From: an uncultured SAR86 cluster bacterium
GTDB lineage: Bacteria; Pseudomonadota; Gammaproteobacteria; Magnimaribacterales; D2472
Direction: 5' to 3'
Assembly (NCBI GenBank): GCA_902602185.1
Contig: CACKPV010000003.1
Coordinates: 1 to 64,000, forward strand
DNA length: 64,000 nucleotides
Below are positions 45,125 through 64,000 of the stretch, one piece after another. A program made the position numbers and the translations under genes. Within the stretch, counting starts at the first letter, position 1. Each line of letters opens with the position of its first letter. The notes beneath the pieces are model-generated. The model saw only the letters and a program-made list of their open reading frames with translations. It was not told the origin of the DNA and did not search any database.

Positions 45125-46220
45125 ATGGATTCTTCAGAACTTAAACTAAAACTTCAAGAACTAATGTCCACTCTTGAGGACATCAGGGGGTATCTTTGAC
45201 GTTGAAAGTAAGGCAGATGAATTAAAAAATATTGAATTATCTCTCACCCAAGAAGAAGTCTGGTCCAATCTAGAAAAATCTACTGAATTAAATAAAAGGA
45301 AGTCTCAGATAGAGAGATCATTAGAACCTTTTTACCAATCTGAGTCACAAATTGAAGATTCTAAAATGCTTTTAGATATTGCAGAAGAAGAAAACGATAT
45401 ACAAACCATAAGTGATATAGCAAATGATATTTCTAAACTTGAAAACACAATCAAAGATTTAGAATTTACCAAGTTGTTCCGCAATAAAATGGATGCCTCA
45501 AATGCTTATATTGATATCCAATCAGGATCTGGAGGTACTGAAGCACAAGATTGGGCTGAAATGTTGAGTAGAATGTATTCAAAATGGGCTGATAGTAGGG
45601 ATTTTAAGGTCTCAGTTGCAGAGACATCTCCCGGAGATGTTGCCGGTTTAAAATCATGTTCCATGCTGATTGAAGGTGACTATGCTTATGGGTGGCTTAG
45701 ATCTGAAACTGGAGTCCATCGCCTTGTTCGCAAATCTCCATTTGATTCAGGCAATAGGAGGCATACTTCTTTTGCATCCGTATTTATTTCTCCTGAAATC
45801 GATGATCAGATTGAGATTGAACTGAATAATAGCGATATTAGGGTTGATACTTATAGAGCTTCTGGAGCTGGTGGACAGCATGTAAACAAAACAGACTCTG
45901 CTGTCCGTCTTACTCATATACCAACTGGCCTAGTTGCACAGTGTCAAAGTGATAGATCTCAACATAAAAATAAAGAAAATGCATTGAAACAGCTCAAATC
46001 TAAGCTTTACGAGTTAGAATTACTAAAACAAAAAGAAGAGCAACAAAAATTAGAAGAGAGTAAATCAGATATTGGTTGGGGCAGTCAAATTCGTTCTTAT
46101 GTTCTTGATCAATCTAGAATAAAAGATTTAAGAACTAATTATGAAACAGGCAATACTTCTGCTGTTCTCAATGGTGAACTTGATGAATTTATGAAAGCTT
46201 CTTTAAAAAAAGGTTTTTAA
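45125..46220 (+). CDS. prfB: Peptide chain release factor 2 (programmed +1 frameshift)
   Basis: First 24 codons from 45125 read to an in-frame TGA at 45197; downstream frame contains GGQHVNKTDSAVRLTHIPTG and SPF. Confidence 0.95.
45185..45200 (+). promoter_or_regulatory. prfB autoregulatory +1 frameshift site
   Basis: AGG GGG TAT CTT TGA C: SD-like AGGGGG, slippery CTT, UGA stop followed by C. Confidence 0.95.
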
Positions 46221-46487
46221 ATGACTGATGACAAAAAAAATATCGAAAATACAATCTTAGAGGAAAGAAGACAAAAACTGGAACAGCTTCGTGATAAAGG
46301 TGATGCCTATAGCAACTCTTTCAAACCTAAAAATACTGCAAAAGCAATAATTGAAGCTTTTGGAGAGAAGACAAAGGATGAGCTTGTATCAGAGAAAGTA
46401 AAAAATATTTCAATTGCGGGAAGGATCGTTCTCAAAAGAGTTATGGTGGATTCGGGTTTTGGAATCTGTTATTTGCTAATGCTGTAG
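46221..46487 (+). pseudogene. lysS: 5' fragment of lysyl-tRNA synthetase (N-terminal ~75 aa only)
   Basis: LEERRQKLEQLRDKGDAYSNSFKPKNTA...ISIAGRIVLKRVM, then homology ends; prfB-lysS adjacency. Confidence 0.85.
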
Positions 46488-47896
46488 GCGGTTTACAAGC
46501 TGGAATGCCAACGAGTGTCCTTGTCCCCTTCATCATTGGTGAAGTAACTGGTGCAAATGCTGCTTTAGGTGGTGCTCTTCAGAATACATTGCCCCCCGAA
46601 CTTAGTGGTTTAAGAAATGATTCTGGTGGAAGACAAAAATCAAAAGCATTGTTTGGTGAGTTATATTACGAAATTGATGATGTAACAACACTTACAGTCG
46701 GTGCAAGATACGACGAGTACTCAGCAGAATCAACTGAATTCAATTCACTTGCTGATGCGCAGATTGATGGTCAAGTTGCAATGGCTTTCCTTAAAGCTGC
46801 TCAAGGAACAACAGCTCCGGTATTTGACAGAAATACTCCTGCACTTGAAAGAGCATTTGCAGATGGTTCTGATACCTCAGTGAAACTTGCTATTGAAAGA
46901 GAATTTGGTGAGGATGCCATGGCATATCTTTTATATTCAACTGCTGTGAAGCCTGGTGGTAATGCACCTAATGCTTCAGGTTCAGTTGTTTCATATGATG
47001 AATCCACAGTCGATAACATTGAGTTAGGTCTTAGAAGTATCCTTGCTGGTGGTAGATTATTATTTAATACTACTCTGTATCAGCTTGAGACAACAGACGG
47101 ACACTATTCATTTATTATCGATTCAAGTACAACTACTCAGTTGATTGATCACACAACTACTGGTTTTGAGATGCAAATGAAAGCACTTCTTTCAGAGAAT
47201 TCATCTTTGGAGTTCAATTTGCTTTCGACTGATTCTGAAATCGGAGCTGGTGAAGCACTTTTTGATCCATTAAATATTAACGGAGCAACTACTACTATTG
47301 GTGCTCCAGTTGGTGCTGCTGGTCTTGGTAATATGCTTTTATCAAATTGTCTTGCAGCTGGTGGAGATATTGCTACCTGTTCTGCTCAAGTTAATGCTGC
47401 AGTAACTGGTATTGCTGCAAACTTTGGTCCATTGTTTGGACTTGCAAATTTCCAAACAACTGATACAGGTGTTGTAGCTAAATTACTAGGTTCACTTTAT
47501 ACATTGCCTGGTCTTTCGGCTCCTGCTCTTCAAGATCTTGAAGGAAACAGAATGCCTGGTGCTATCGAGACTGATCTAACTATTGCTTATAATCACTCCT
47601 TTGCCCTAAGTGCAGGTGCTTTAGATGTGAGAGCAACTTATGTTAATAAGTCTGGTACATATGCAGATATCTTTAACACTGATAGATACAAAGTACCACC
47701 ATCACAAGTCTTTGACTTGCTAACAACTTATACTCCAAATGACGGAGACTGGTATGTTGGTGGATATGTTAAGAATATTGGTAACAAACGTCATCTCACC
47801 AGTATTCAACAAGGTAGTGTTCTTCAAGGTGGTGTATTACATGCAACCTTCACACAACCAAGAACTTACGGTGTTAGATTTGGTATAAATTTCTAA
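46442..47896 (+). pseudogene. C-terminal fragment of a TonB-dependent receptor (no signal peptide or plug domain)
   Basis: Beta-barrel sequence with terminal TYGVRFGINF; frame remains open upstream of 46505 (YGGFGFWNLLFANAVGGLQAG) into the lysS junction. Confidence 0.85.
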
Positions 47897-47910
47897 AACG
47901 CATGTTTTTA

Positions 47911-47943
47911 AAAAAACCCAGCTTTATGCTGGGTTTTTTTTTA
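47911..47943 (+). terminator. Rho-independent terminator after the TonB receptor fragment
   Basis: AAAACCCAGC-TTTAT-GCTGGGTTTTTTTTT. Confidence 0.92.
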
Positions 47944-47955
47944 TATAATGAATTG

Positions 47956-48315
47956 ATGTTTTTCAAGTTGTTAATTCTCATTTTATTCATGTCAAATGCA
48001 TATACTGAGATAATTGAGATCAAGGATACTAATGCTATCAATAACCTTGGTGAACTTAGAAAAGTCTGTGGCAAAGTAAGATCTACACACATGAGTAGCT
48101 CACCCTCTAAACAAGTCTATTTAAATTTTGGAAGAAAATATCCTAATCATGTCTTCACAGGATTAATTTGGTATGGTTCAAATAAAGGAAATTTTACTCA
48201 TAGACCTGATCGATTTTATCTCAATAAACAAATCTGTGTTTCAGGTGTCATAACCCAATATCGAGGTATTCCTCAAATCCAAATAGATTTTGAAGAGCAA
48301 ATTGAAATTCAATAG
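47956..48315 (+). CDS. Small exported protein with OB-fold-like C-terminus
   Basis: Signal-peptide-like MFFKLLILILFMSNAYT, then VCGKVRSTHMSSSPSKQVYLNFGRKYPNHVFTGLIW...ICVSGVITQYRGIPQIQI. Start moved downstream of the terminator. Confidence 0.65.
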   Translation: MFFKLLILILFMSNAYTEIIEIKDTNAINNLGELRKVCGKVRSTHMSSSPSKQVYLNFGRKYPNHVFTGLIWYGSNKGNFTHRPDRFYLNKQICVSGVITQYRGIPQIQIDFEEQIEIQ

Positions 48316-48317
48316 TT

Positions 48318-49013
48318 CTAGATACTGATTACTGGAAATTCAGTGTGAGAGATTTCATTATCGTGTAATTTGATATGAAAGGTATTTTTATCATCCCCAA
48401 AGTTTATAGCATGCATAATTTGATCATTTTTAATATGCAATGCGCAGTTTCCCTCAATTCCAATACAGTCCTTTATTAGATGCTGTTCAAGTATTTTTTT
48501 TACATAAGGTATTCTATTTGGCTCTTCATCATAATGTGGACAGCAAACTCCTTCGACAAAACCTAAACAATCAATAATTGCTAGATCATGCGCCCATGAA
48601 TCAGAAATACCCTTTTCAAACCAACAGATTGCTCCAGCACTCACTCCACACATTATTACACCATTGAGATATGCTTCTTTTAAGATGACATCTAGTCCCC
48701 AATCTTTCCAAACAGCCAACATACTCTTGGTATTTCCTCCACCAACAAAAATTATGTCCTGATTGGCAATGTGACTTTCAAGATCAATAGTTCTTTTAAA
48801 AAAATCTACGTGTGTCGCATTACAACCTAATTGTGTGAAGACTGAATAAAAATTAACTTTATAGGCATCATTGTCTCCAGTTGCTGTAGGTATAAAGCAT
48901 ACATTTGGATTATCATTCCTAGCTAGGGAAATAATATGTTTTTCTATTTTAAGGTTGCCAAGTGAGCGACCAAAACCTCCTCCTCCAATTGCAATAATAT
49001 TTCTATCCACCAT
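48318..49013 (-). CDS. Peptidase E / S51 family peptidase
   Basis: IAIGGGGFG, FVGGGNTKSML, MCGVSAGAICWFE nucleophile elbow. Confidence 0.9.
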   Translation of the reverse strand: MVDRNIIAIGGGGFGRSLGNLKIEKHIISLARNDNPNVCFIPTATGDNDAYKVNFYSVFTQLGCNATHVDFFKRTIDLESHIANQDIIFVGGGNTKSMLAVWKDWGLDVILKEAYLNGVIMCGVSAGAICWFEKGISDSWAHDLAIIDCLGFVEGVCCPHYDEEPNRIPYVKKILEQHLIKDCIGIEGNCALHIKNDQIMHAINFGDDKNTFHIKLHDNEISHTEFPVISI

Positions 49014-49710
49014 TTTTTTCCTTAAATTTCATATTTAAATAATTAGAGAGTCTGATTCTCCATTTTTGAGTATATAACTCAAATTCATCCTCGGGGATAA
49101 CAAAAACCTTATGCAAATAAAGTCTATCAACCATTAATACGACAAGTTGTTTTATATTGGTATTAAATGCTTTGTTATGAGCGTTTGCATAGGCTACACA
49201 TTGTAAAAAATAATCTTCAATCCACTCCTTTTTTTTCATTTTTCTAGAGGTTTTAAAATCAATAATAGATTCTTTATTATTATATATACCTATGCAGTCA
49301 GCAGTTCCTGCATAAAAGTCATCCATGACTAAGCTAACTTCGAGACCCCACACTTCGTTAATCTTAGGCAAGCAGTGATCCATCATAGTTTGGGTCATTT
49401 TTCTTGCAACACGACCATCATCTGTATCAGGAAAAGTATCCCATTCATGGCCATGATAAAAAGCTTCTACAGCTTCATGAACCATAGTCCCAATATCAGT
49501 ACTTTGCTTTGTAATTCTGTTAGCCTCTTCATGCCCTACTCGTCTCTTCCAGTTTTCTAGTTGCTCTTTAGATTCAGGAGGTTTAGTTTCTGCAAGAATT
49601 GTTGTCACTGATGCAACTGGGTTACCGTTTGAATCTAAATAAAAACGATTGCCATCTATCTCCTTTCTTTGATGTTGAACATATGAATATTTATCTTTAA
49701 TTAGGGTCAT
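49003..49710 (-). CDS. PD-(D/E)XK exonuclease (RecB/MGME1-like, phage-type)
   Basis: GTMVHEAVEAF, YAGTADCIG...SIIDFKTSRK, QCVAYANAHN core motifs. Confidence 0.75.
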   Translation of the reverse strand: MTLIKDKYSYVQHQRKEIDGNRFYLDSNGNPVASVTTILAETKPPESKEQLENWKRRVGHEEANRITKQSTDIGTMVHEAVEAFYHGHEWDTFPDTDDGRVARKMTQTMMDHCLPKINEVWGLEVSLVMDDFYAGTADCIGIYNNKESIIDFKTSRKMKKKEWIEDYFLQCVAYANAHNKAFNTNIKQLVVLMVDRLYLHKVFVIPEDEFELYTQKWRIRLSNYLNMKFKEKNGG

Positions 49711-51658
49711 TTAAAAGCTCTTGTAATGGTGAAAGATATTCTGCATAGTTTTCCCAATAATTCATTCCTGATTTATAGATTGGTTGTCTAACCTGTTGGG
49801 CACTTGGTGTTTTAACCGGTCTTGATGAATTGTAAAACTCAAGACAGTCTTGTTCAAATGGAAGTCCACAATAATCAATTATTTGCCGAATGGTTGTTTC
49901 AGTATTTCCAATAACATTTTTATATTCAACAGTAAGAATTTCTCCTGGATAAATCTTGTGCCAGTGATCCATAGCATTGATGTAATCATTATAATAATGT
50001 GCTAAATCACTCAGACTATATGTGAATAATTGCCCTCTCGCAAAGAATTGTTTAAAGCAACTAAAGCATGTATCCATTGAACTTCTTCGTGTATCAATTA
50101 TTTTTGCATTGGGTAATATTGTTTTTATTAATCCGATATGAATAAAATTATTAGGCATTTTATCAATAAAGAAAGGAGCTTTTTGTCGCGACCATCTAGT
50201 AGAGTCGATATACTTTTTCCCTAAATTCTTAATGTCATTTTTTGGGAGTTGGAGAAGAGTTTCTGGATACCCTTTTTCATCCATTGCATTAAGATCTGCA
50301 GCAGCTTTGATAATATTAGGAAGTTCTTGAGTTCCATCAACTAGGGAATGCGCAGAAATAATTTGATCAACTAAAGTAGATCCTGACCTTGGCATTCCTA
50401 AAACAAATATGGGATCAATTGAATCAAATCCACTTTCTTTTAACTCTTGAGCAAGTTCTTTTTGAAAAAAATTAAGGGTCTTTTTAGTTTTTTCACTGTT
50501 ATCCTTTGCAGAATACTTTACTGTGTCATGCTTTAACTTATTTCCTTTATCATAATAATGAAATGATTGTCTGAAATCTTTTTTTGATTCAAATGCTTTA
50601 CCCAAAGCAAAATACATTTGGATTTTTTCAAGATCTGCAATCTCATCATTCAATGTCTTTTGCATATTTGAGATTTCATGATCAGAAAATCTATAAGTTT
50701 TTAGATTTGCTAGGCTCCAATATGATTCTCCAGAAAGGCTGTTTTGTTCAATCGTCTTATGATAAGACTTAATAGATTTATCTATTTCTCCTAATGTTTT
50801 GTAGACATGGCCCAAACTCAAATGTACTCGAGGACTGTCGGGTTTAAAATCAATTGCTTTTAGATAAGCTGACACAGCCGCATCATAGTCTGCAAGTTTT
50901 GTTAAAACAGTGCCATATTCTGCCCAAATTAGTGCATTTTCAGGATTTAATGCCAAAATATTAGCAAATGATTGTTTTGCTTTATCTAACTGCCCAGTAA
51001 CACTATAAACCTGTGCAAGATTTGCCCATAATAAATTATAAGTTGGAGCCATTTTAAGAGCTTTTGTTAAAACTGCTTCGGCAATATCATGGTTACCCGA
51101 TTTGAAAGCAAGAATTCCCATAAACCTCAAGGCATCAATATTATTTGGATCTTTTTGAAGAATCTCTTTAAAGACATCCTCGGCTTTTCGGAATCTTTTA
51201 GCATGTAAATGTCTCAATCCTTTGTATAGTTGTTGATATTCTTTATTCTGCTCAAAGAATTTTTGAATTTCGATATCTGCATCCTCCATTCGATTCTCCT
51301 GAACTAAAAGGTTAGACAGATATTTAACATCTTTGATATCTGGATTTTTTTTTATTAATAATCTTAAAAGATCGATTGCTTCTAAATTTCTTCCAAGAAA
51401 CTCCAAAGTTTTTATCTTTAATCTTATTAAAACAAGGTTATCTTGATTTACACCCAAACCATCGTTAATATAAATGAGAGCTTTTTTTGGATTATTTAGT
51501 TTTATATAACACTGAATTATCAAAAAAATAGAATTTAATTCATTGGGAAATATCTTAATTATTTCTTCCAATTGATTAATTGAAGACTGATAGTCTTTTT
51601 TTTCAAAAAAAACATTTGCGTTCTGATATGCTATCTGTAGATTATTTTTTTCACTCAT
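49697..51658 (-). CDS. TPR-repeat protein with C-terminal sulfotransferase domain
   Basis: N-terminal TPR array; C-terminal PAPS-like FVLGMPRSGSTLVDQIISAH and IDTRRSSMDTCFSCFKQ. Confidence 0.9.
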   Translation of the reverse strand: MSEKNNLQIAYQNANVFFEKKDYQSSINQLEEIIKIFPNELNSIFLIIQCYIKLNNPKKALIYINDGLGVNQDNLVLIRLKIKTLEFLGRNLEAIDLLRLLIKKNPDIKDVKYLSNLLVQENRMEDADIEIQKFFEQNKEYQQLYKGLRHLHAKRFRKAEDVFKEILQKDPNNIDALRFMGILAFKSGNHDIAEAVLTKALKMAPTYNLLWANLAQVYSVTGQLDKAKQSFANILALNPENALIWAEYGTVLTKLADYDAAVSAYLKAIDFKPDSPRVHLSLGHVYKTLGEIDKSIKSYHKTIEQNSLSGESYWSLANLKTYRFSDHEISNMQKTLNDEIADLEKIQMYFALGKAFESKKDFRQSFHYYDKGNKLKHDTVKYSAKDNSEKTKKTLNFFQKELAQELKESGFDSIDPIFVLGMPRSGSTLVDQIISAHSLVDGTQELPNIIKAAADLNAMDEKGYPETLLQLPKNDIKNLGKKYIDSTRWSRQKAPFFIDKMPNNFIHIGLIKTILPNAKIIDTRRSSMDTCFSCFKQFFARGQLFTYSLSDLAHYYNDYINAMDHWHKIYPGEILTVEYKNVIGNTETTIRQIIDYCGLPFEQDCLEFYNSSRPVKTPSAQQVRQPIYKSGMNYWENYAEYLSPLQELLNDPN

Positions 51659-51661
51659 GTA

Positions 51662-53155
51662 ATGAACAATCTTTTTAATAACAAAGACATAAACTTATCT
51701 TTGATAGGTATTCCCATTTTACTCTCAATTTCAATTTGTTTATATGTATTTTCAGATGTTACACAATCAATTAAGGTTTTAAAGTCAATCTATGAGAATG
51801 CTGCTTTACAACTTGAAAATGTCTTTGAAATTGGAGGATTTTTAATTTTTGTGTTCTTAGTTTTAATTTCTTTAATGCCAACTGCTAGCAAAAAAATTAA
51901 TATTGCAGATCGTCCTAAATTCAATAATATTGCCTGGTGTGGAATGATGTTTGCTGCTGGAATGGGAGCATCAATTTTATTTTTGTCACCTTTAGAATGG
52001 GCACATACTTACAATGCTTCTCCCTTTTTATTAGAATCTTCTGATCCACTATTATCGAAATATAGTCAATCATATCCTTTGTTTCATTGGGGGTTCATTG
52101 GTTGGGCTATATTTGCTTTACCAGCAGCTGCTTTTGCGTTTGGTTTATTAAATAAATCAGATATGCCTTTAACAATAAGTGCTTTATTGATTAAAGAATC
52201 AACTCCAATAAAAAAAATCATAAAAGTTTTAATTGATATGACCTGTATTCTTGCAATCCTTGCCGGAGCAGGAGTTGGGATGGGAGTAGCCTTCCCAATG
52301 ATTGCGGAATTGCTGTCATATCTCTTTGGATTTTCAAATAATTATTTATTCGAATTGTTTATCCTTCTAATATGCCTGTCTATTTTTGGTACTAGTGTTT
52401 ATCTTGGTTTATCTCAGGGAATAAAAAGGTTGAGTAATATCAATATTTTTTTAGTATCTGCTCTTCTTTTAACCGTTTTTATTGTTGGCCCTACAGCCTT
52501 CATAATAAAAAATGCTTTATCCTCATCAACTTTTATGATGACTCAATTCATTGAAATGAGTTTTCAATCAACCAGTAAATTTGCTCAATCATGGACTGTA
52601 TTTTATTGGGCTTGGTGGATGGCCCTTGCTCCTTTTATTGGAACTTTCTTAATTCAAATATCGAATGGAAAAACTATTAGACAACTTATTCTGGGGACAA
52701 TATTTATTGGCTCATTTGCTTCATTTATGCATTTTTATGTATTAGGCGGTTTGACTTCATTTTTTTTTGAAGAAGGAATTATGGATGTACCTTCACTAGT
52801 CAAGAATAATCCTAATGAAGTAATAATTTTGCAAATGCTTAAAGAACTCCCACTAAGCTCTATATTAATAGGAATGTATGCATTAATAGCTATCATATTT
52901 GTGTGTACCACTTACGATTCATGCTCTTATGTATTGGCATCAATTGCAACAAATAAAAGTAGCAAACAACCACCAAAGGTTTTAAGGTTAATTTTTGCCG
53001 GAATTTTAGTTATCCAACCTGGGATAATCATGTTTCTTGAAGGAATTGATAGCATAAAATATATTTTAGTGATTTCATCGATTCCCTTACTTTTTGTTTT
53101 TATAGTGTTAATTTTAAATATGATTATCAATGTTTATAGAAACCAAATCAGCTGA
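51662..53155 (+). CDS. BCCT family transporter
   Basis: AAGMGASILFLSPLEWA, SWTVFYWAWWMALAPFIGTFLIQISNGKTIRQ. Confidence 0.9.
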   Translation: MNNLFNNKDINLSLIGIPILLSISICLYVFSDVTQSIKVLKSIYENAALQLENVFEIGGFLIFVFLVLISLMPTASKKINIADRPKFNNIAWCGMMFAAGMGASILFLSPLEWAHTYNASPFLLESSDPLLSKYSQSYPLFHWGFIGWAIFALPAAAFAFGLLNKSDMPLTISALLIKESTPIKKIIKVLIDMTCILAILAGAGVGMGVAFPMIAELLSYLFGFSNNYLFELFILLICLSIFGTSVYLGLSQGIKRLSNINIFLVSALLLTVFIVGPTAFIIKNALSSSTFMMTQFIEMSFQSTSKFAQSWTVFYWAWWMALAPFIGTFLIQISNGKTIRQLILGTIFIGSFASFMHFYVLGGLTSFFFEEGIMDVPSLVKNNPNEVIILQMLKELPLSSILIGMYALIAIIFVCTTYDSCSYVLASIATNKSSKQPPKVLRLIFAGILVIQPGIIMFLEGIDSIKYILVISSIPLLFVFIVLILNMIINVYRNQIS

Positions 53156-54011
53156 AGCCTTTTGTTTCAATCTTAATTCAATTGATATGTCAAAGGACAC
53201 AGTATTGTTTATTGCTGGTGCTGGTATGGATCATAGAATTGTAAGAAATATTGAAATAGATAAAGAAATATTCAACCCTATCATCAGTATTGATCTTCCA
53301 GGGCATGGTAATTCACCACCCAAAGAGATTTCTAGTATTGAATCATATGGAGATTTCATCTGTGAAGTAGTTAGTGAGTTGAATCTTAAAAACTTTCATA
53401 TTTGTGGACATAGCATGGGTGGTTTGATTGCTCTAAATATTGCATCCAATAATTTATCAGGACAAAAATCTACTTCTTTAATAAATTGTTTATATCCATT
53501 ATTTGTTGGATCAGCTTTGTTAGATGACTCGATTAGAAATCTTGATGCAGCAACAGAGTTTATGACTAAGTATGGTGTTCATAAAATACCATCAAAAAGT
53601 AGTAGTACTAAGAGTTTTGGGGTTTTAGGGAGTAGTTTTTATAAGAAAAATGATGGTTTAGTAAATTCACCATATGGTTCCAAGAAGATAAAAAATAATC
53701 CTGATGAAGAAGTAAATCTTTTTCCATTGAAGAAATTATTTAATCAAGTCACCAAAAAGATTATGTTTGTTGATTTGAATGCATGTAAAAAATATAGAAT
53801 GGATACAAAAGAGTTGAAAAAGATAGATAACTTAGTCCTCCTAGCTGGTGAACATGATAAGTTAGCTCCTTTAGAAAAAATTATGGAAATGGAATCTTTA
53901 TTTAAAGAATGCAAGATAAAAAAAATGGAAAATGTAGGACATTTTCCATTTTTTGAAGATCCAAAAGGATTTAGTAAAAGTTTAAATACTATACTTAAAA
54001 CTTATATCTAA
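53130..54011 (+). CDS. Alpha/beta hydrolase
   Basis: DLPGHGNSPP, CGHSMGGLIAL nucleophile elbow, GEHDKLAP, VGHFPFFEDP. Confidence 0.9.
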   Translation: MFIETKSAEAFCFNLNSIDMSKDTVLFIAGAGMDHRIVRNIEIDKEIFNPIISIDLPGHGNSPPKEISSIESYGDFICEVVSELNLKNFHICGHSMGGLIALNIASNNLSGQKSTSLINCLYPLFVGSALLDDSIRNLDAATEFMTKYGVHKIPSKSSSTKSFGVLGSSFYKKNDGLVNSPYGSKKIKNNPDEEVNLFPLKKLFNQVTKKIMFVDLNACKKYRMDTKELKKIDNLVLLAGEHDKLAPLEKIMEMESLFKECKIKKMENVGHFPFFEDPKGFSKSLNTILKTYI

Positions 54012-56346
54012 CTCTTACTCCAATAACTCTTGGTTGACCACTAGTTTTTCTATACTCACTAAAGTCATCGTAAAGACCTAAAACAGGATCAGTGTCGTTA
54101 ACATTTCTTATAAACAACTCTGCAGTTGTTCCTGACTGAAAATCAACTCCAAGTCTTGTATTCATTAAAGAATAAGAAGGCATGGACAAAGAGTTGCCAT
54201 CATCTGCCCATCGATCACCTGTGTAGTTATAGTCCAAACCAAAGTAAGCAGGAAGACCGGCAATTACAAAATCCTTATCCAGAGTTATAACTAATCTTTT
54301 CTCAGGAACATAAGCCAACCTATTTCCCTTTGAAGCTACTAAGTCTCCGCCTATATCAAAGGTATCATTATCCACAGTAGGGTCATTGAAATTTGCAAGT
54401 ATTGACATACTCATTGAGTCAGATAAATTGAAATAAGATTCAATTTCAGCACCTTGAATAGTTGCCTCACCCACATTATCAACATAAGCAACAGTTAGAT
54501 AATCATAAACATATCGTGTTGCTTGATAATCTTCCCAATTCATTGAATAGAAAAGTCCATTTAAGACAACATCACCATCAGCTAGGGTTGATTTAAAACC
54601 TACTTCCATATTTTTTAATAAATCAGATGTATAGGTATCTGGAACCAACTCAGCAGTGTTGCCAGTTGTTCTATTAATCCCACTGGGTCTAAAACCCTCA
54701 GAGTAGGTTGCATAGAGCATAAGATTATCACTTGGTCGATGAGCAATGTTAAATCTTGGAGCAACACCCTCATCACCAAAATTATAAGATTCCGTCCTAC
54801 CAACAAATCCTAAGTTTGGATCAGTCTGTGCATACCCAAAATAGCCGTCAGTAGCATGAAAATTATTTTTAGTATCATATTTTCTAAAGCCGACTGTTAG
54901 GTCAGTTTTATCACTTGCAGGAATTGTAACTTCACCAAATATAGCTTTCTGTTCATCTTCTCTGACATTATCTTGTCCCCACCAACGGTTATCGACAACG
55001 GTTAAAGAAGGTGATAATTGACCAAGAAAATCATAGAAAGTCTGATATTCATGATCATTTGTTTCAAAGAATGCACCTAAAATCCATTGATATCCTGAAT
55101 CAGTGGTTGATTGGATTCTAAACTCATTACTATTTCTTTTGAAATCATCAAATTGTGTATAGAAAACTCTAGGATCTGTTGAAGCATAATAATCATAGTC
55201 ATAATAATATGCAGCATAGTAATCGTACCCAAAATAATAAACATATTGTGTGTAGTCATAAGTGTAAGCAATATCTCTGTCAAACATTGAACTAGTAAAA
55301 GTAAAATCAATACTTTCAGTTAATGATCCAGACATTGTCAGTGATGCCTGAGAAAATTCATCATCAAAAGTCTCAGGCGTATATCTTGAAACTTTTCTTG
55401 CTCCCTCATTGATGTCAGCTTCCCAAGAACCATCGGAATGATAATCTTGCTCAAGGAATGACAAATCAAAAGTAATACCATTTTCTGTTTCAGTAGCAAA
55501 ACGTACTCTATATCCTGACTTGTCACTAGAGTTGTAGTCTTCTCTCAGATCAATATAGTCAGCATTTGAATGAGTGCCTAAATAGGTGAAGTTTTGAGTT
55601 GTTGCCACATTGTCTAACCATCCTCCAGTATGCAGGTCATATGCACTTATTCTCACAGCAGATCTATCACCTAAAGGAAGATTGACAAATGATTCAAAAG
55701 ATCTATCCGAATCACCATCATGGATATCACCATATTCAACATCCACACCAAATTCTGTTCCATCCACACTTGGTTTTTTGGTAATGATCTTAACAGTACC
55801 TGCTTGAGAGGAAGATCCATAAAGTGTGCCTTGAGGCCCTGTAAGAATTTCTACTCTTTCAATATCATAAATATGGAGGTCGGGGTTACCACCAATTGTA
55901 GATAGAGGTTGATCATCTATATATAGAGCAGTTGAAGCTTGTGCTCCTGCCCTATTCCCAAATCCACCATCGGAAACACCTCTGGCATAGAAATAAGAAT
56001 TTCCACTTCCACTGTCATCAACAATCAGAGAAGGTGATAAATTAGCAATATCACGAAAATCCTTAACATTCTTTGCTTCAAGTTGTTCTGAAGTAATAGC
56101 TTGGACACTTAAAGGTAAGTCTTGAGCATTAGATTCTCTTTTAGTGGCAGTGACTACAACCTCCTCAACACCCTCATCTTCTTGCGCAATGAGTTTTGTG
56201 GGTTGGGAAAAACCAAGACCAATTGCTAATGCACCTAAATATGACATCGCAAAGCGGTTTTCAGCAAAAATTTCCTGAAGAAGCTTGGTTAAAGGATCAA
56301 CCTTTTTATGAAACAGTGGTTTTAATACGATTTTTTTATTTTTCAA
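53995..56346 (-). CDS. TonB-dependent receptor (likely TTG start at 56346; alternative 56361)
   Basis: EEVVVTATKRESNAQDLPLSVQAIT TonB box/plug, IERVEILTGPQGTLYGSSSQAGTVKIITKKP, terminal VRVRYKF. Confidence 0.93.
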   Translation of the reverse strand: MKNKKIVLKPLFHKKVDPLTKLLQEIFAENRFAMSYLGALAIGLGFSQPTKLIAQEDEGVEEVVVTATKRESNAQDLPLSVQAITSEQLEAKNVKDFRDIANLSPSLIVDDSGSGNSYFYARGVSDGGFGNRAGAQASTALYIDDQPLSTIGGNPDLHIYDIERVEILTGPQGTLYGSSSQAGTVKIITKKPSVDGTEFGVDVEYGDIHDGDSDRSFESFVNLPLGDRSAVRISAYDLHTGGWLDNVATTQNFTYLGTHSNADYIDLREDYNSSDKSGYRVRFATETENGITFDLSFLEQDYHSDGSWEADINEGARKVSRYTPETFDDEFSQASLTMSGSLTESIDFTFTSSMFDRDIAYTYDYTQYVYYFGYDYYAAYYYDYDYYASTDPRVFYTQFDDFKRNSNEFRIQSTTDSGYQWILGAFFETNDHEYQTFYDFLGQLSPSLTVVDNRWWGQDNVREDEQKAIFGEVTIPASDKTDLTVGFRKYDTKNNFHATDGYFGYAQTDPNLGFVGRTESYNFGDEGVAPRFNIAHRPSDNLMLYATYSEGFRPSGINRTTGNTAELVPDTYTSDLLKNMEVGFKSTLADGDVVLNGLFYSMNWEDYQATRYVYDYLTVAYVDNVGEATIQGAEIESYFNLSDSMSMSILANFNDPTVDNDTFDIGGDLVASKGNRLAYVPEKRLVITLDKDFVIAGLPAYFGLDYNYTGDRWADDGNSLSMPSYSLMNTRLGVDFQSGTTAELFIRNVNDTDPVLGLYDDFSEYRKTSGQPRVIGVRVRYKF

Positions 56347-56377
56347 TTTAATTCCCCTCAATAATTAGAACATACTT

Positions 56378-56399
56378 AATCATGCAAAAATGCATGATT
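56378..56399. promoter_or_regulatory. Perfect inverted repeat upstream of the TonB receptor gene
   Basis: AATCATGCA-AAAA-TGCATGATT. Confidence 0.6.
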
Positions 56400-56456
56400 T
56401 AGTCATAATTTAGTATATCACCATGCGGAAATAAGTAAAAATCTAGAAAAATAAAT

Positions 56457-57506
56457 TTAAAGGGAAAATAATCTTTCTAAAAGAAAAAATGTGCCCCATA
56501 CTTCAGACTCCTGTTCACAATTGGGATATATAATTTCGGGCTGAGCGTCAGTTTTACAGTATCCTATTTGGAAATATGAACTTTCTCCAGTTGCAGGATT
56601 ATATCCAGTTTCAGGCCACATATGATCTGCATCTAGATTCAAAATAGAAAGGATTTGTTTACCTCCTTTGCATCCCGAATACCTGGTTACAACAAATCTT
56701 TCTAAATTTGAATATTCATTGGAACTCGATAAATCACATTCGAATTTTGTTGACCACTCATCAATAGTATTTTGCATCGGCTCATAAAAGTAGCCGTCTT
56801 GAGATCTAATATTTATTGGGGGAACGGTCTTGTCATGGAACGAACCATACATTAAGAAACTAACTGGTTTTGCAGGAATACAACTATTTCCAAGCATTTG
56901 CATTCCATTTACACTCATTACCCCTGTGACTACATCTGGATATTCGCACCCAAAAGCTTGAGCAAACATTCCTCCGTTGCTGTTACCAACAACATACACA
57001 TCTTCTACTATGAATTCTTCTTGCATATTTTGAATAACCTTTGCAACAAAACCAAGATCGTTACTACAAGAAGCCCAAGCACATCTGGATGGATTCTCGC
57101 AGTTTTTAAAATAGGGATAAGGAAATCTTTTTGTATCAACATCGCAAGTTTCTCCAGTTGATGATGATTTTGAAAATGATTGTGAACCTGCATTGTCATT
57201 AAAAGATGAAAAGAAAAAATCATTGTCATAAAAATAACTACCTTGTGGATAAACTGCCAGAAAATTGAATTTATCTGCAGCTTTATTAAAACCCCCTGTT
57301 ACCTCATCCTCAAATGCCGATGCAGTTCCACTATAACCATGAACCCCAACAACAAGATTAATTGGTTTACTTGCATCAAAATTTTTTGGTTTATATAAAA
57401 GATAGCTTCTATCACTACCCTCAAATTGAAGATTGATTTGCTGCATTCCTGCAGCAAGATTCACGCAGAGAACATAAGCTAAAAAATGAAATAATTGTTT
57501 ATACAT
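56457..57506 (-). CDS. Secreted PHB-depolymerase/feruloyl-esterase-like alpha/beta hydrolase
   Basis: Signal peptide, VVGVHGYSGTASAFE, VGNSNGGMFAQAFGCEYPDVV. Confidence 0.8.
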   Translation of the reverse strand: MYKQLFHFLAYVLCVNLAAGMQQINLQFEGSDRSYLLYKPKNFDASKPINLVVGVHGYSGTASAFEDEVTGGFNKAADKFNFLAVYPQGSYFYDNDFFFSSFNDNAGSQSFSKSSSTGETCDVDTKRFPYPYFKNCENPSRCAWASCSNDLGFVAKVIQNMQEEFIVEDVYVVGNSNGGMFAQAFGCEYPDVVTGVMSVNGMQMLGNSCIPAKPVSFLMYGSFHDKTVPPINIRSQDGYFYEPMQNTIDEWSTKFECDLSSSNEYSNLERFVVTRYSGCKGGKQILSILNLDADHMWPETGYNPATGESSYFQIGYCKTDAQPEIIYPNCEQESEVWGTFFLLERLFSL

Positions 57507-58368
57507 GTTTTAAAATAAACCTAGTGATTATAGAGTAAGCTTCTTCTTTTTTTACTCCACTTAAAACCTCATGCCTTTCATTTTCGATTATATAACATTC
57601 GGTTTTTTTGTAGAATTTCTGTAAAAAAATATTTAATTGATGGACACCCTCACCGAAGCCTCCGACTGGGTCATTATTTCCTGAAATCAACATCAATGGT
57701 ATTTGTGAAGAAAAATTAGTGTAGTTCCCCTCATCGAAAATTTCAATCATCCCATATGCAAAGTCGTTCCATAATCCCAGAGTTTTTTTAAATCCACATA
57801 AAGGATCGTCAACATAATCATCAACATTCAATGGGTCTGAGGAAATCCAATCACTTGGGGTTCTATTAGGTGCAAATTTTTTGTTATATGCTCCAATCGT
57901 TAGTCTCTCCAGTAAATTACTTTCAGATTGATTACCATAGAAAAAAATTAAAAAACTTGTCAGAGTTTTAATAAATTTTGCAAGAAATGTGTTTAATTTA
58001 TTTGAGCCACTAAGAATTACTCCATCAACTTCAAGACCTTTAAGCATAGCTGAAATTGCAATCCAGGAACCCATACTGTGAGCAAATAAAATGTGCTTAG
58101 AATTTGGGAATTCAGTTTTTCCATTAATAATTACTTCTTGAAGATCATTTACTACTTTTACCCAACCATTTTTATTAGCAAAATGACCCTGTAATTTTCC
58201 TTTTTTTATCTGTTCACCATGGCCTCTATGATCGTAAGCAATTACATGGAAATTATCTTGATTTAACTTTTGAATAAACCATTTATATCTTCCCATATGC
58301 TCAGCCATACCATGAGTAATATAAATAATAGCTCTTGGAGTTTCATTGATTGATAAGAATTTTTTCAC
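57499..58368 (-). CDS. Alpha/beta hydrolase, monoacylglycerol lipase/lysophospholipase-like
   Basis: ITHGMAEHMGRYKWF, AYDHRGHGE, FAHSMGSWIAI. Confidence 0.88.
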   Translation of the reverse strand: MKKFLSINETPRAIIYITHGMAEHMGRYKWFIQKLNQDNFHVIAYDHRGHGEQIKKGKLQGHFANKNGWVKVVNDLQEVIINGKTEFPNSKHILFAHSMGSWIAISAMLKGLEVDGVILSGSNKLNTFLAKFIKTLTSFLIFFYGNQSESNLLERLTIGAYNKKFAPNRTPSDWISSDPLNVDDYVDDPLCGFKKTLGLWNDFAYGMIEIFDEGNYTNFSSQIPLMLISGNNDPVGGFGEGVHQLNIFLQKFYKKTECYIIENERHEVLSGVKKEEAYSIITRFILKHV

Positions 58369-58371
58369 AAA

Positions 58372-58400
58372 TTGATATTAGTTTTATAAAAATTCATAAT
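58372..58400 (+). promoter_or_regulatory. Candidate sigma70-type promoter for the KAS III-like gene
   Basis: TTGATA - 17 bp - CATAAT in the divergent intergenic region. Confidence 0.4.
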
Positions 58401-58442
58401 TTATAATAGTGATGTTCATAACACATTAACATTAAAAAAAGA

Positions 58443-59558
58443 ATGAAAGAAATTTTTATCACTGGAACAGGATTTTGGAAACCAGATGAGATTGTAACGA
58501 ATGATGAGATAGTCAATTCATACAATGCATATGTTGATAAATTTAATGAAGAATTTAAGGCTGAAATTGCTTCTGGACAAAAAAGTGAATTATCTTACTC
58601 AAGTTCTGAATTTATTGAAAAAGCATCTGGTATCAAAACACGGTATATTTTAGATAAAAAAAATGTGTTAGATCCCAATGTGATGAAACCAACTACACCT
58701 GCCGAACTTGCTTCTAATCAATCTCTGTTGGCAGAAATATCAATAATTGCTGCCAAAAAAGCTATGGAGGCTGCAAAAATTAATGCATCAGAGATCGATG
58801 CGGTCATAATGGGTACTTCTCATTCGGCAAGAAACTATCCAGCCATTGCAATTGAAGTCCAAGAGGAGTTGGGTATAGCTGGATATGGTTATGACATGCT
58901 CGTTGGGTGTTCATCTACAACATTTGCAATTAGTAATGCTTTCAGTGATATATCCTCAGGGTTAGCAAACAATGTTTTGGTAATTAATCCGGAACTTACC
59001 TCACCAGCTAATGATTTCACTCTACGAGACAGTCATTTTATTTTTGGGGATGCCTGTGTTGCAACAATTGTTCAATCACAAGCAATAAATGACCAAAGCT
59101 TTAAAATTTTGAACCGAAAATTGGTAACTCAGTTTTCAAATAACATACGCAGTGACTTTAGCTATATGAATAGAACTGATCAACTCGACCGTGATGATGA
59201 TGAACTATTATTTCGTCAAAATGGAAGAAGTGTATTTAAAGAAGTGTGTCCGATGGTTGTAACAATAATTAATCAACAACTTAGTGATATGAATATAGAT
59301 ATTTGTGATATTAAAAGATTATGGTTACATCAAGCTAATGGAAATATGATTAGTTATGTAGCAAAAAAACTATATGGTGATAATTACGATGAAAAATTAG
59401 CGCCCATGATATTGGCAGAATATGGAAATGTTGCATCTGCTGGTTCTGTTATAGCTTTTAATCAAACAAGTGATGATTTTATTTCTGGTGATAAAGGTGT
59501 GATATGCTCTTTCGGAGCTGGCTATTCAATATGCTCACTTGTAGTTGAAAAGGTTTAA
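58443..59558 (+). CDS. Beta-ketoacyl-ACP synthase III family protein (FabH-like)
   Basis: SEFIEKASGIKTRYILDK, DMLVGCSSTTFAISNAF active Cys, LWLHQANGNMI, GNVASAGS. Confidence 0.9.
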   Translation: MKEIFITGTGFWKPDEIVTNDEIVNSYNAYVDKFNEEFKAEIASGQKSELSYSSSEFIEKASGIKTRYILDKKNVLDPNVMKPTTPAELASNQSLLAEISIIAAKKAMEAAKINASEIDAVIMGTSHSARNYPAIAIEVQEELGIAGYGYDMLVGCSSTTFAISNAFSDISSGLANNVLVINPELTSPANDFTLRDSHFIFGDACVATIVQSQAINDQSFKILNRKLVTQFSNNIRSDFSYMNRTDQLDRDDDELLFRQNGRSVFKEVCPMVVTIINQQLSDMNIDICDIKRLWLHQANGNMISYVAKKLYGDNYDEKLAPMILAEYGNVASAGSVIAFNQTSDDFISGDKGVICSFGAGYSICSLVVEKV

Positions 59559-59560
59559 TA

Positions 59561-59707
59561 ATGTTAGGTTTGGATTTATCAATAACAATTTTTATAGTTA
59601 CTTTTGCATTAATGGCTCTCTACATTTTTAACGAAGCACAGCCGAAGGGTTCTAAATTCTCCTCAAACATATCCGAAATATTGAGAAGATTCTTCCGCAG
59701 AAGATGA
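59561..59707 (+). CDS. 48-aa single-TM small protein (not in the provided ORF track)
   Basis: MLGLDLSITIFIVTFALMALYIFNEAQPKGSKFSSNISEILRRFFRRR*; begins 2 bp after the KAS III stop and overlaps tspO start as ATGA. Confidence 0.65.
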   Translation: MLGLDLSITIFIVTFALMALYIFNEAQPKGSKFSSNISEILRRFFRRR

Positions 59708-60159
59708 TAAATAAATTATTGTTATGTATAGCGGTAGTTATTGCTGCCGCAATTGGTGCATTTGGTTCAATTGATTCAGGGTCTGATACCTGGTACCAGT
59801 CATTACAAAGAAGTATTCTTACTCCACCTGACTTTATTTTTGGAATTATTTGGCCAATTCTTTACGCTTTTATGATTGTGTTTGTCATAATTGGAGCTTC
59901 TTATAATTCTTTTTCTAATATCTATAAAACTTTTGTTGCTCAGTTACTTCTTAATGCAGCTTGGCCTTGGTTATTTTTTACTTATCACCTTCCAAAAGTT
60001 GCATTAATCAACATAGTCATCCTTGTTGTCCTAAATGCAAGAATTGTTAAGATCATTTGCCATGATTTTAGAGATATATATGGGTACCTGCATGTACCCT
60101 ATTTGCTCTGGCTGATGTTTGCTGCTTATTTAAATTTAATTATAGTTATATCAAATTAA
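59704..60159 (+). CDS. tspO: TspO/MBR family protein
   Basis: WYQSLQRSILTPPDFIFGIIWPILYAFMIV, AWPWLFF, PYLLWLMFAAYLN. Confidence 0.9.
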   Translation: MINKLLLCIAVVIAAAIGAFGSIDSGSDTWYQSLQRSILTPPDFIFGIIWPILYAFMIVFVIIGASYNSFSNIYKTFVAQLLLNAAWPWLFFTYHLPKVALINIVILVVLNARIVKIICHDFRDIYGYLHVPYLLWLMFAAYLNLIIVISN

Positions 60160-61408
60160 CGCATGCAACAACGAGTCCTGTCATACAAGATGCTAAAGTT
60201 GCACCAATTAGTGCTTTAAAAGATACACTCACAATATCACTTCTTCTATCAGGAGCCATTGCACCAACACCTGCAATCAAAATCCCAACTGATGAAAAGT
60301 TAGCAAATCCACATAATGCATAAAGGGTAATCAATTTTGATTGCTCTGATAATAATCCTGGTTCAAGAGAAGCTAGACCATTATAGGCAACAAATTCATT
60401 GAGGGCAGTTTTCACTCCAAGTAATTGTCCAGCAATGATAGCTTCTTCCCAAGGAATACCCATAAGCCAGCAAATAGGAGCAAAAATATAACCTAAAATA
60501 ACTTGCAAAGACAAATCGTCATGGATCAATCCCAGCAAGGAATCAAACAAAGCAACAAATGTAATAAATACAATCAAAATAGCACCTACACTCAGAGCAA
60601 TTTCAAGGCCATCTCTGGTCCCACGAGTGACTGCATCCATTTGACTGTTATATAACTTGGGAAGTTCAGAGTCATCAAATTGTGTTATTTCATTTGATGG
60701 CATGAGTATATTGGCATAAATGATAGCTGCAGGCACTGAAATGATAGATGCTGTTATCAAGTGCTGGATTAAAACAATATCTGGAAATTGATTATTTAAC
60801 ATACTTACTAAAGCAACCATAATTGAGCCAGCTACAGTAGACATCCCTGCAGTCAGTAAAATTAGGATTTCTTTCTTTGACAACTTAGATAAGTATGGCC
60901 GGATTACTAATGGCGCTTCAACTTGACCAACAAAAACATTGGCAGCAGCTCCAAGTCCTATGGGTCCACCTATATTAAATAATCTTTGACAAATCTTAGA
61001 AAATCCGTCGACAATAATCTTCAATACCTTGATGTGCCATAACCAAGCTGTTAATGCAGACATCACCAAAATAAAAGGAAGAATCCCAAATGCAAAATAG
61101 GCTGACTGAACCTGCACAGATGGGTCTTCTAAGGAAAATGGAAGAGCTGGACTCGATAAAAATCCAAAGAGAAACGAAGTACCTTTAGCAGTTGCATTTT
61201 GTAAAGCAATTACACCATCTCCAAGGAATTTAAAGGCATCGACAATTAACGGAACTTTCAATAAAAGAATTGCTAAAACAATCTGAAAAATTATTCCTAT
61301 CCCAATACTCTTATAGTTTACATTTTTAAGGTTCTGGGAGAATGGAAGTGCAATTAATACTAACCCAAAAAAACCCACCAAAAGTTGAAGTAAATATAAC
61401 AGAGACAT
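60146..61408 (-). CDS. Concentrative nucleoside transporter (NupC/CNT family)
   Basis: VFVGQVEAPLVIRPYL, GMSTVAGSIMVALVSML, GVKTALNEFVAY, ALCGFANFSSVGI. Confidence 0.94.
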   Translation of the reverse strand: MSLLYLLQLLVGFFGLVLIALPFSQNLKNVNYKSIGIGIIFQIVLAILLLKVPLIVDAFKFLGDGVIALQNATAKGTSFLFGFLSSPALPFSLEDPSVQVQSAYFAFGILPFILVMSALTAWLWHIKVLKIIVDGFSKICQRLFNIGGPIGLGAAANVFVGQVEAPLVIRPYLSKLSKKEILILLTAGMSTVAGSIMVALVSMLNNQFPDIVLIQHLITASIISVPAAIIYANILMPSNEITQFDDSELPKLYNSQMDAVTRGTRDGLEIALSVGAILIVFITFVALFDSLLGLIHDDLSLQVILGYIFAPICWLMGIPWEEAIIAGQLLGVKTALNEFVAYNGLASLEPGLLSEQSKLITLYALCGFANFSSVGILIAGVGAMAPDRRSDIVSVSFKALIGATLASCMTGLVVACVNLI

Positions 61409-61414
61409 TATTTG

Positions 61415-62317
61415 TTAATAAAGCTTAATTGCTTTAACTCTTTCCTCCAGAAAATCATGAGCTAATACCCCTTCATCATCATCTCGAAATATTGATTTAA
61501 GAACTACTCCGGGAGCAGGATGTAAAAAGAATGGCATGCTAAATCTTGATTTTGACTTACCCTTATTATATTCAATGACTCTATGAGGTGTGCTTTTTAG
61601 ATGGCCATCAGTTATGAGCTGCATCATATCTCCAATATTGCAAACTATTGCATTCGAATTAGCAGATACTGGAATCCAATTATTATCTTTACTCTGAACT
61701 TCTAAACCAGCTTCCTCAGCACCCACAAGCAAAGTAATTAAATTTATATCAGCATGTGCCCTTGCCCTCAAAAGATTTGATGATCCCTCAACTGGAGGAT
61801 AATGAATTAATCTCAAAATTGAATTACCTTTTTCCACTTTGTCAGTGAAGAAATCCTGAGGTTGTTTAAGAATTATGGCAATTGATTCAAGTACACAGAT
61901 TCCTAGTTTATTTAACTGATTAAATAGTTGATTAAAATGGATGTTAAACTGTTCTAGTTCAACAACGGAAACATTTTTGTTAATTCTGGAATCATAGGAT
62001 TCATTTATTTCTGGACCTAAATGCCAAAACTCTTTCATGTCAGCAACCTTTTCACCTAAAGCTGTTTCTTTACCAAAAGGTGTGTAACCCCTCGCACCTC
62101 CTAACTCTGGTCGGGCATATTGATTTTTAGTTTCTTCAGGCAAATCAAAAAATATTTTAGCTTGCTTATAACTTTCCTTTAGTAAATCTGTTTCAATGTC
62201 ATGGTCGACAATTGAGAAAAAACCATGAGAGTGCAGTGCATCATTGAGAAGTAATAGATCACTTTCCTTTTGTTCAAGTAAAGATTGCAATGAGATTGCA
62301 GGAATTGAAGAACTCAT
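61415..62317 (-). CDS. 2OG-Fe(II) oxygenase, isopenicillin N synthase-like family
   Basis: HADINLITLL (HxD), GHLKSTPHRV (H), SRFSMPFFLHP (RxS). Confidence 0.93.
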   Translation of the reverse strand: MSSSIPAISLQSLLEQKESDLLLLNDALHSHGFFSIVDHDIETDLLKESYKQAKIFFDLPEETKNQYARPELGGARGYTPFGKETALGEKVADMKEFWHLGPEINESYDSRINKNVSVVELEQFNIHFNQLFNQLNKLGICVLESIAIILKQPQDFFTDKVEKGNSILRLIHYPPVEGSSNLLRARAHADINLITLLVGAEEAGLEVQSKDNNWIPVSANSNAIVCNIGDMMQLITDGHLKSTPHRVIEYNKGKSKSRFSMPFFLHPAPGVVLKSIFRDDDEGVLAHDFLEERVKAIKLY

Positions 62318-62332
62318 AAGTTTAGTTTAACA

Positions 62333-62363
62333 AAAAAAAAGGGCAGTATAACTGCCCTTTTTT
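62333..62363 (-). terminator. Rho-independent (bidirectional-looking) terminator after the right-end TonB receptor
   Basis: AAAAAAAA-GGGCAGT-ATA-ACTGCCC-TTTTTT. Confidence 0.88.
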
Positions 62364-62376
62364 AATCAATTCAAAC

Positions 62377-64000
62377 TTAGAATTCGTAAGAAAAACCAAG
62401 TTGCCATCTGTAAGATGAATCATCATAATCAATAAATGATCTATCATCATTTATACCGGTGATAATATATCTTCCTTGATCATCCCAACCATCAATCTCA
62501 AGAACTCCTTGATCAGAATATTTAAATCTTCTAATGCCTCTATCTTCTTCGAAAAGATTAAGAACATTCATTACATCCAGATAAAGAATAAATTTATCAT
62601 TTTCCATGAATCCAGGAAAATCTTGAGAAAGTCTTAAATCAAGATTTCTGTAATATGGTGCTCTTCCTTGTCTTTTTGGAACAGTGCTTCCAGCAAAACC
62701 ACTTAAACCAAGATCAGCTATGTGATTAAGAACCTCGATTTCAGAAATTCCGTCATAAACAACATTTGGATCATTTGGTCCAGGAACATAAATTAGAACA
62801 TTGTAATCTCTATCAAATAACTCAGGACCATCATTGTAAGTATGGCTGTAAGGTCTGCCTGAGTAAGCACTATAAAATAAGGATAGTGTTGTATCATAAC
62901 CACTTCCTTCATTCCAAGTATAATCAGCTCCAGCTATCAATCTGTGCTCTTGAGCCCATTTGCTTGGACCCATAACTGGTTCAAGAGCACTTGGTCTTGA
63001 CTCTCCTCTATAATTAGATCTCATTTGTGATGATGTACTATCATATAAGGATTCTGCAGTTAAATTTGTGTAAGAAATAAATGCATTTATGCCGTTATCA
63101 AAATCTTTATCGGCTGATAATGTTATTGAAGTCGAGCCTCCTTTAGAGGTATTTCTTGTATATAAATTATCAGAAAACCCATTATTATAAATTGGTCGGC
63201 CATCGGCAGCATAAAAATCAACTCCAGCTTGAGCAGTTCCAGCATCATAGTAATCAAATGCGTCAATATTATTGGTTTTTGTTAAACCTGCTTTTAATCT
63301 AGCACCATTCGATGTGTAGATGGTTAAATCCATAGCAAATCTTAGGTCATTTGGAACTGTTAAACCCGGAGCAAAGGCATTAGCTGCACCACCACGCATT
63401 GTTGATAGGTCTAGCAATGTATGTAATTGGGTACCGTCATAATAATCTCTCCAATCGAAACCATTTTCACCGGTAACATAATCACCTAACATCCAATGAC
63501 CCACAAAAACAGTTGACATTCCATTAGCAGATCCAAAAGGAGCAAGATACCAAACTTGAGGAACTCTTCCTTGGAAAACTCCAACTCCACCAGAAAGTTC
63601 AGCACCATCAATCCAAGAGGCTTCACTGAAAATTTTAGCTCCACTCATGTCAAGCTGATATCCAAAACGTGGTTGAATTACTTCTGAATCAATTCCTAAA
63701 TTATTATCAAAACCTGCAATAGCAGCATAATTTGGGTTTAGAGGAATTTCACTATTTGTAACCATTGTGTCAACTCTGACACCAAAATTAATTGTAAGAA
63801 TGTCACTAACATCCACTACATCTTCAACATAAAATGATTCAATTTCAATTTCAGCACCTGCAGCAGCAGTGGCAAGATTGTTATCCCAAGGTTTGATAAA
63901 TCTCATATATGTCATATTTCCAGTAAGAAAATCGTCAACACTATTCCATCTCCATCTTCCATTCTCATATGGTATGAATAAATTATAGGCAAATCTGTCG
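62377..64000 (-). CDS. TonB-dependent/Oar-like outer membrane receptor, C-terminal part (truncated by window edge)
   Basis: Beta-barrel C-terminus ending WQLGFSYEF; frame stays open to 64000 (DRFAYNLFIPYENGRWRWNSVDDFLTGN...). Confidence 0.88.
   Translation of the reverse strand, partial: DRFAYNLFIPYENGRWRWNSVDDFLTGNMTYMRFIKPWDNNLATAAAGAEIEIESFYVEDVVDVSDILTINFGVRVDTMVTNSEIPLNPNYAAIAGFDNNLGIDSEVIQPRFGYQLDMSGAKIFSEASWIDGAELSGGVGVFQGRVPQVWYLAPFGSANGMSTVFVGHWMLGDYVTGENGFDWRDYYDGTQLHTLLDLSTMRGGAANAFAPGLTVPNDLRFAMDLTIYTSNGARLKAGLTKTNNIDAFDYYDAGTAQAGVDFYAADGRPIYNNGFSDNLYTRNTSKGGSTSITLSADKDFDNGINAFISYTNLTAESLYDSTSSQMRSNYRGESRPSALEPVMGPSKWAQEHRLIAGADYTWNEGSGYDTTLSLFYSAYSGRPYSHTYNDGPELFDRDYNVLIYVPGPNDPNVVYDGISEIEVLNHIADLGLSGFAGSTVPKRQGRAPYYRNLDLRLSQDFPGFMENDKFILYLDVMNVLNLFEEDRGIRRFKYSDQGVLEIDGWDDQGRYIITGINDDRSFIDYDDSSYRWQLGFSYEF

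Follow-up and report, generated by a model that had tools for sequence, protein, structure and literature searches.

The window, a stretch of 64,000 nt, corresponds to positions 1-64000 of contig C3 (129,291 bp) of the assembly G000 and forms the left half of this contig. The assembly comprises 12 contigs and 1.09 Mb and has a completeness of 82%. The features around the locus are listed in Table 1. The prfB gene is intact and is followed directly by the start of lysS at 46221, as stated in the preliminary description; the two genes adjoin each other in the relatives too. The prfB start codon is ATG at 45125, and an in-frame TGA is found at 45197 inside AGGGGGTATCTTTGAC (45185-45200). This is the well-known +1 frameshift site of RF2. 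It is due to this in-frame TGA that the list of open reading frames places the start of prfB at TTG 45174.

Table 1 Features at the prfB-lysS-receptor locus (positions within the window unless a contig is given)
Feature	Position	Strand	Remarks
Block A	C3:1-46446		Upstream of the join; ends in prfB and the 5' part of lysS
prfB (RF2), intact	45125..46220	+	PCRF and RF-1 domains; borders the join on the left, at the end of block A
lysS, 5' part (about residues 1-75)	46221..46446	+	Remainder at C3:128075-129291 (-), outside the window
Probable false join	46440..46446	.	GTTATGG, ~7 nt probably common to lysS and the receptor gene, as judged from congeners
TonB-dependent receptor, 3' part	46440..47896	+	5' part at G000:C4:2-1027 (-); ~400 bp absent between the parts
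Block B, left part in the window	46447..64000		Whole block C3:46447-129291; orientation probably wrong relative to 1-46446, judged by the relatives' gene order and the change in GC skew

The reading frame that begins with the lysS start (46221-46487) encodes only 88 aa, and lysine--tRNA ligase models match it over residues 10-80 only (TIGR00499 profile positions 3-73, E 3e-8). A search of the genome with TIGR00499 placed these profile positions at C3:46248-46460 (plus strand). At the DNA level, lysS is collinear with its homologues in eight congeners as far as ...AAAAGAGTTATGG (46446) and diverges beyond this point. From about 46440 onwards, a frame other than that of lysS encodes the barrel of a TonB-dependent receptor (PF00593 profile positions 159-436 of 436, E 2e-15). 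The first residues of the barrel, YGGFGFW, are homologous to DGYGGFQFW, which lies in the middle of the receptors of the congeners (951-973 aa). Neither the plug nor the signal peptide is present at this locus. The preliminary description, which had placed the end of LysRS homology at about 46446 and the start of a headless receptor barrel at the same point, was thus correct to within ~7 nt, and the lack of the signal peptide and plug which it noted was borne out.

The contig contains no N at the join. The overlap of ~7 nt between the lysS and receptor sequences is deduced from the congeners, the corresponding native sequence being absent from the assembly. No repeat longer than ~26 nt was found at the junction in G000, in a comparison that lay outside the missing 45 and 400 bp described below, and no inverted repeats able to drive an inversion were found in this assembly. 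The exact junction sequence had no match in a collection of genome contigs, which may leave out the genome of the window itself. The GC skew was +0.118 over positions 1-46446 and -0.064 over 46447-129291, and its cumulative maximum was at 48,382. The skew also changes sign inside C4, and the skew evidence is therefore soft.

The missing halves of both genes were found in the same assembly. The TIGR00499 positions 85-494 are encoded at C3:128075-129289 on the minus strand, in a frame open at the right end of the contig (129291), and this second piece alone passes the curated cut-off of the model. The two LysRS pieces detected in G000 with this model are complementary and each occurs once; according to the alignment to the congeners, the gap between them is 45 bp. 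The N-terminus of the receptor, which the earlier reader had proposed to look for, was located at the end of another contig: the signal peptide and plug are encoded at C4:2-1027 (minus strand), in a frame open at the left end of C4. Both receptor parts match one gene in seven congeners, in order and ~400 bp apart. A search with the congener sequence as the query, run without a control, found no match to the missing middle of the receptor elsewhere in the assembly. Each of the two joined pieces thus has its true continuation at a contig end of this assembly (C3:129289 of 129291 and C4:2).

The gene order in the relatives links these pieces. In five congeners (G001, G002, G003, G008 and G009), the homologues of C3:40-46 kb lead through prfB to an intact lysS and then to the homologues of the genes from C3:128 to ~119 kb in reversed order. 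In the same five genomes, the homologues of the C4 genes from 5.8 kb down to 1 lead to an intact receptor gene and then to the genes from C3:47.9 kb onward. The order on the lysS side is also kept in G010, G014 and G016, which represent different genera within the family or order. Mapping of the entire contigs C3 and C4 onto the relatives placed block A next to block B (46440-129291) in reversed orientation, and the relatives' order requires that the left end of block B be joined to C4. Judged by the gene order of the five congeners, the pieces that meet at the join accordingly lie on opposite strands of a single genome. The relatives' prfB-lysS pair includes a class II LysRS; in G000 the gene has the same neighbours and is otherwise complete, but, unlike in the relatives, its lysS lies in two pieces of one contig which lack 45 bp between them.

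LysRS is an essential enzyme, and the search for another lysS of class I or class II, which the preliminary description had suggested, yielded none in the assembly. Model searches of the 82%-complete G000 assembly gave no second class II LysRS, whereas a complete LysRS above the cut-off of the same model was found in 19 of the 20 relatives; the exception, G004, gave only weak matches to the LysRS model, in a 610-aa frame. The sole PF00152 match in G000 is a LysRS piece, which means that AspRS is also absent from the assembly; the absence of AspRS is in keeping with the completeness of 82%. No class I LysRS was detected in G000 either. The PF01921 model gave two short weak stretches, in frames of 938 and 804 aa, which most likely encode other class I synthetases.

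Taken together, the positions of the gene halves, the gene order of the relatives, the skew, the single LysRS and the lack of a junction repeat suggest that the contig is chimeric. With high confidence, we consider the join at 46446 to be an artefact, which arose in amplification, in library preparation or in assembly, and not a feature of the chromosome. The truncation of lysS is real in the contig, but the organism itself very probably does not have it; the earlier statement that lysS is severed would thus most likely hold for the contig, its remainder lying at the far end of C3, and not for the organism. In the organism, lysS would run from C3:46446 through ~45 missing bp to C3:129291 and would then be read leftward, and the receptor gene would run from C4 position 1027 leftward to 1 and through ~400 missing bp to C3:46440. 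A single false link, from about codon 75 of lysS into the central part of the receptor gene at a distance of 83 kb and on the opposite strand, would make the assembler traverse block B backwards, from the receptor to lysS. C3 would then stop in lysS, as block A, which comes next, had already been placed at the other end, and the N-terminal part of the receptor would be left stranded at the end of C4. One false link would in this way produce the two interrupted genes as well as the C3 end inside lysS and the C4 end inside the receptor gene.

The link may stem from a chimeric molecule or read, which would most resemble the inverted chimeras with short homology that form during multiple displacement amplification (MDA). 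The chimeras usual in MDA are inverted joins in which sequence has been lost and 2-21 nt are shared (PMC1855051); in one set of single-cell genomes, 1.72% of the reads were chimeric on average (PMC6162917). Like the inverted chimeras formed by phi29 MDA (PMC1855051), the join in C3 connects oppositely oriented segments of one genome, with lost sequence and, probably, a few shared nucleotides. In contrast to these, of which 337 of 406 spanned less than 10 kb (Lasken and Stockwell 2007, PMC1855051), the joined points lie 83 kb apart. Since this span exceeds that of most reported MDA cases, the false link may also have been of some other kind. An inversion or relocation misassembly of a draft genome likewise joins the wrong end of a block and leaves the true neighbours at contig ends; unlike in such cases, no explanatory repeat was found at the G000 junction. 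Repeat-mediated recombination and repeat collapse were rejected as candidates for the same lack of a repeat, the missing 45 and 400 bp being unseen. On its own, a simple branch in the assembly graph would not account for the loss of these 45 and 400 bp.

The preliminary description had offered two options, a chimeric contig or a real deletion or recombination which destroyed lysS. The lost halves at the contig ends speak for the former, and the failure to find another LysRS speaks against the latter. In its plainest form, the second option would be a recent chromosomal inversion of 83 kb with breakpoints in lysS and the receptor gene, which would deprive this cell or strain of an intact lysS. 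The join without N agrees with this, and the relatives' gene order, which shows the ancestral state either way, would look identical and alone cannot separate an artefact from a real inversion. We nevertheless regard such an inversion as very unlikely: it would destroy the only LysRS found, no inverted repeats to drive it were found, and it needs a chance contig break within ~450 bp of the second breakpoint (~0.5% by our own estimate for 12 contigs and 1.09 Mb). A genuine inversion in a cell that survives on a split LysRS, or on another LysRS in the unassembled part of the genome, is extremely improbable.

A real inversion might also have been carried by a minority of the sampled cells and chosen by the assembler despite a majority with intact lysS. 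Apart from the existence of the linked sequence without N, nothing favours this reading, which we consider extremely unlikely, as such cells, lacking LysRS, should not persist and the breakpoints show no repeats. The meeting of unrelated genes at a single point would also be expected of a contig composed of two different organisms. The chance of this is practically negligible: the sequences on either side of the join match the same congeners, with similar identity, and the candidate was rejected because all four gene halves fit one congener gene order.

Unless the contig is split at 46440-46446 and the right part inverted, annotation will report a lysS pseudogene and a headless receptor gene. 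Left uncorrected, the join would constitute a false record of the loss of an essential gene, and the value of the finding lies in quality control. It demonstrates a cheap test, which is to check contig ends for the missing halves before gene loss is claimed.

A second false join was suspected at C3:75.5-75.9 kb from the differing gene order in G002, G003, G008 and G009. This candidate was rejected: the order in G005:C13 is the same as in G000 (amtB, a conserved RNA stretch and the gene C3:75911-78067), so the junction looks natural. An IMES-1 RNA (RF02034) lies at C3:75647-75837, in a conserved region of ~330 bp that separates amtB from the gene C3:75911-78067. The amtB contigs of G009 and G006 end within this conserved region, and congener gene order varies there. 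Two tandem glutamine riboswitch aptamers (RF01739) are located at C3:73054-73189 and precede an outer-membrane-like gene, glnK and amtB. Contig C6 ends at G000:C6:43343 in codon 7 of the pyruvate kinase gene, which in G009 adjoins the homologue of C3:75911-78067; the end of C6 in this gene thus marks another point where the order in G000 departs from that of some congeners. Elsewhere in the assembly, a 5.8-kb region with two genes, at least one of which encodes a TonB receptor (G000:C1:347689-353488, L101-L102 region), is 98% identical at the DNA level to G002 and 95% to G009, whereas most proteins of G000, G002 and G009 share ~50-85%. This region may represent either a recent interspecies transfer or contamination.
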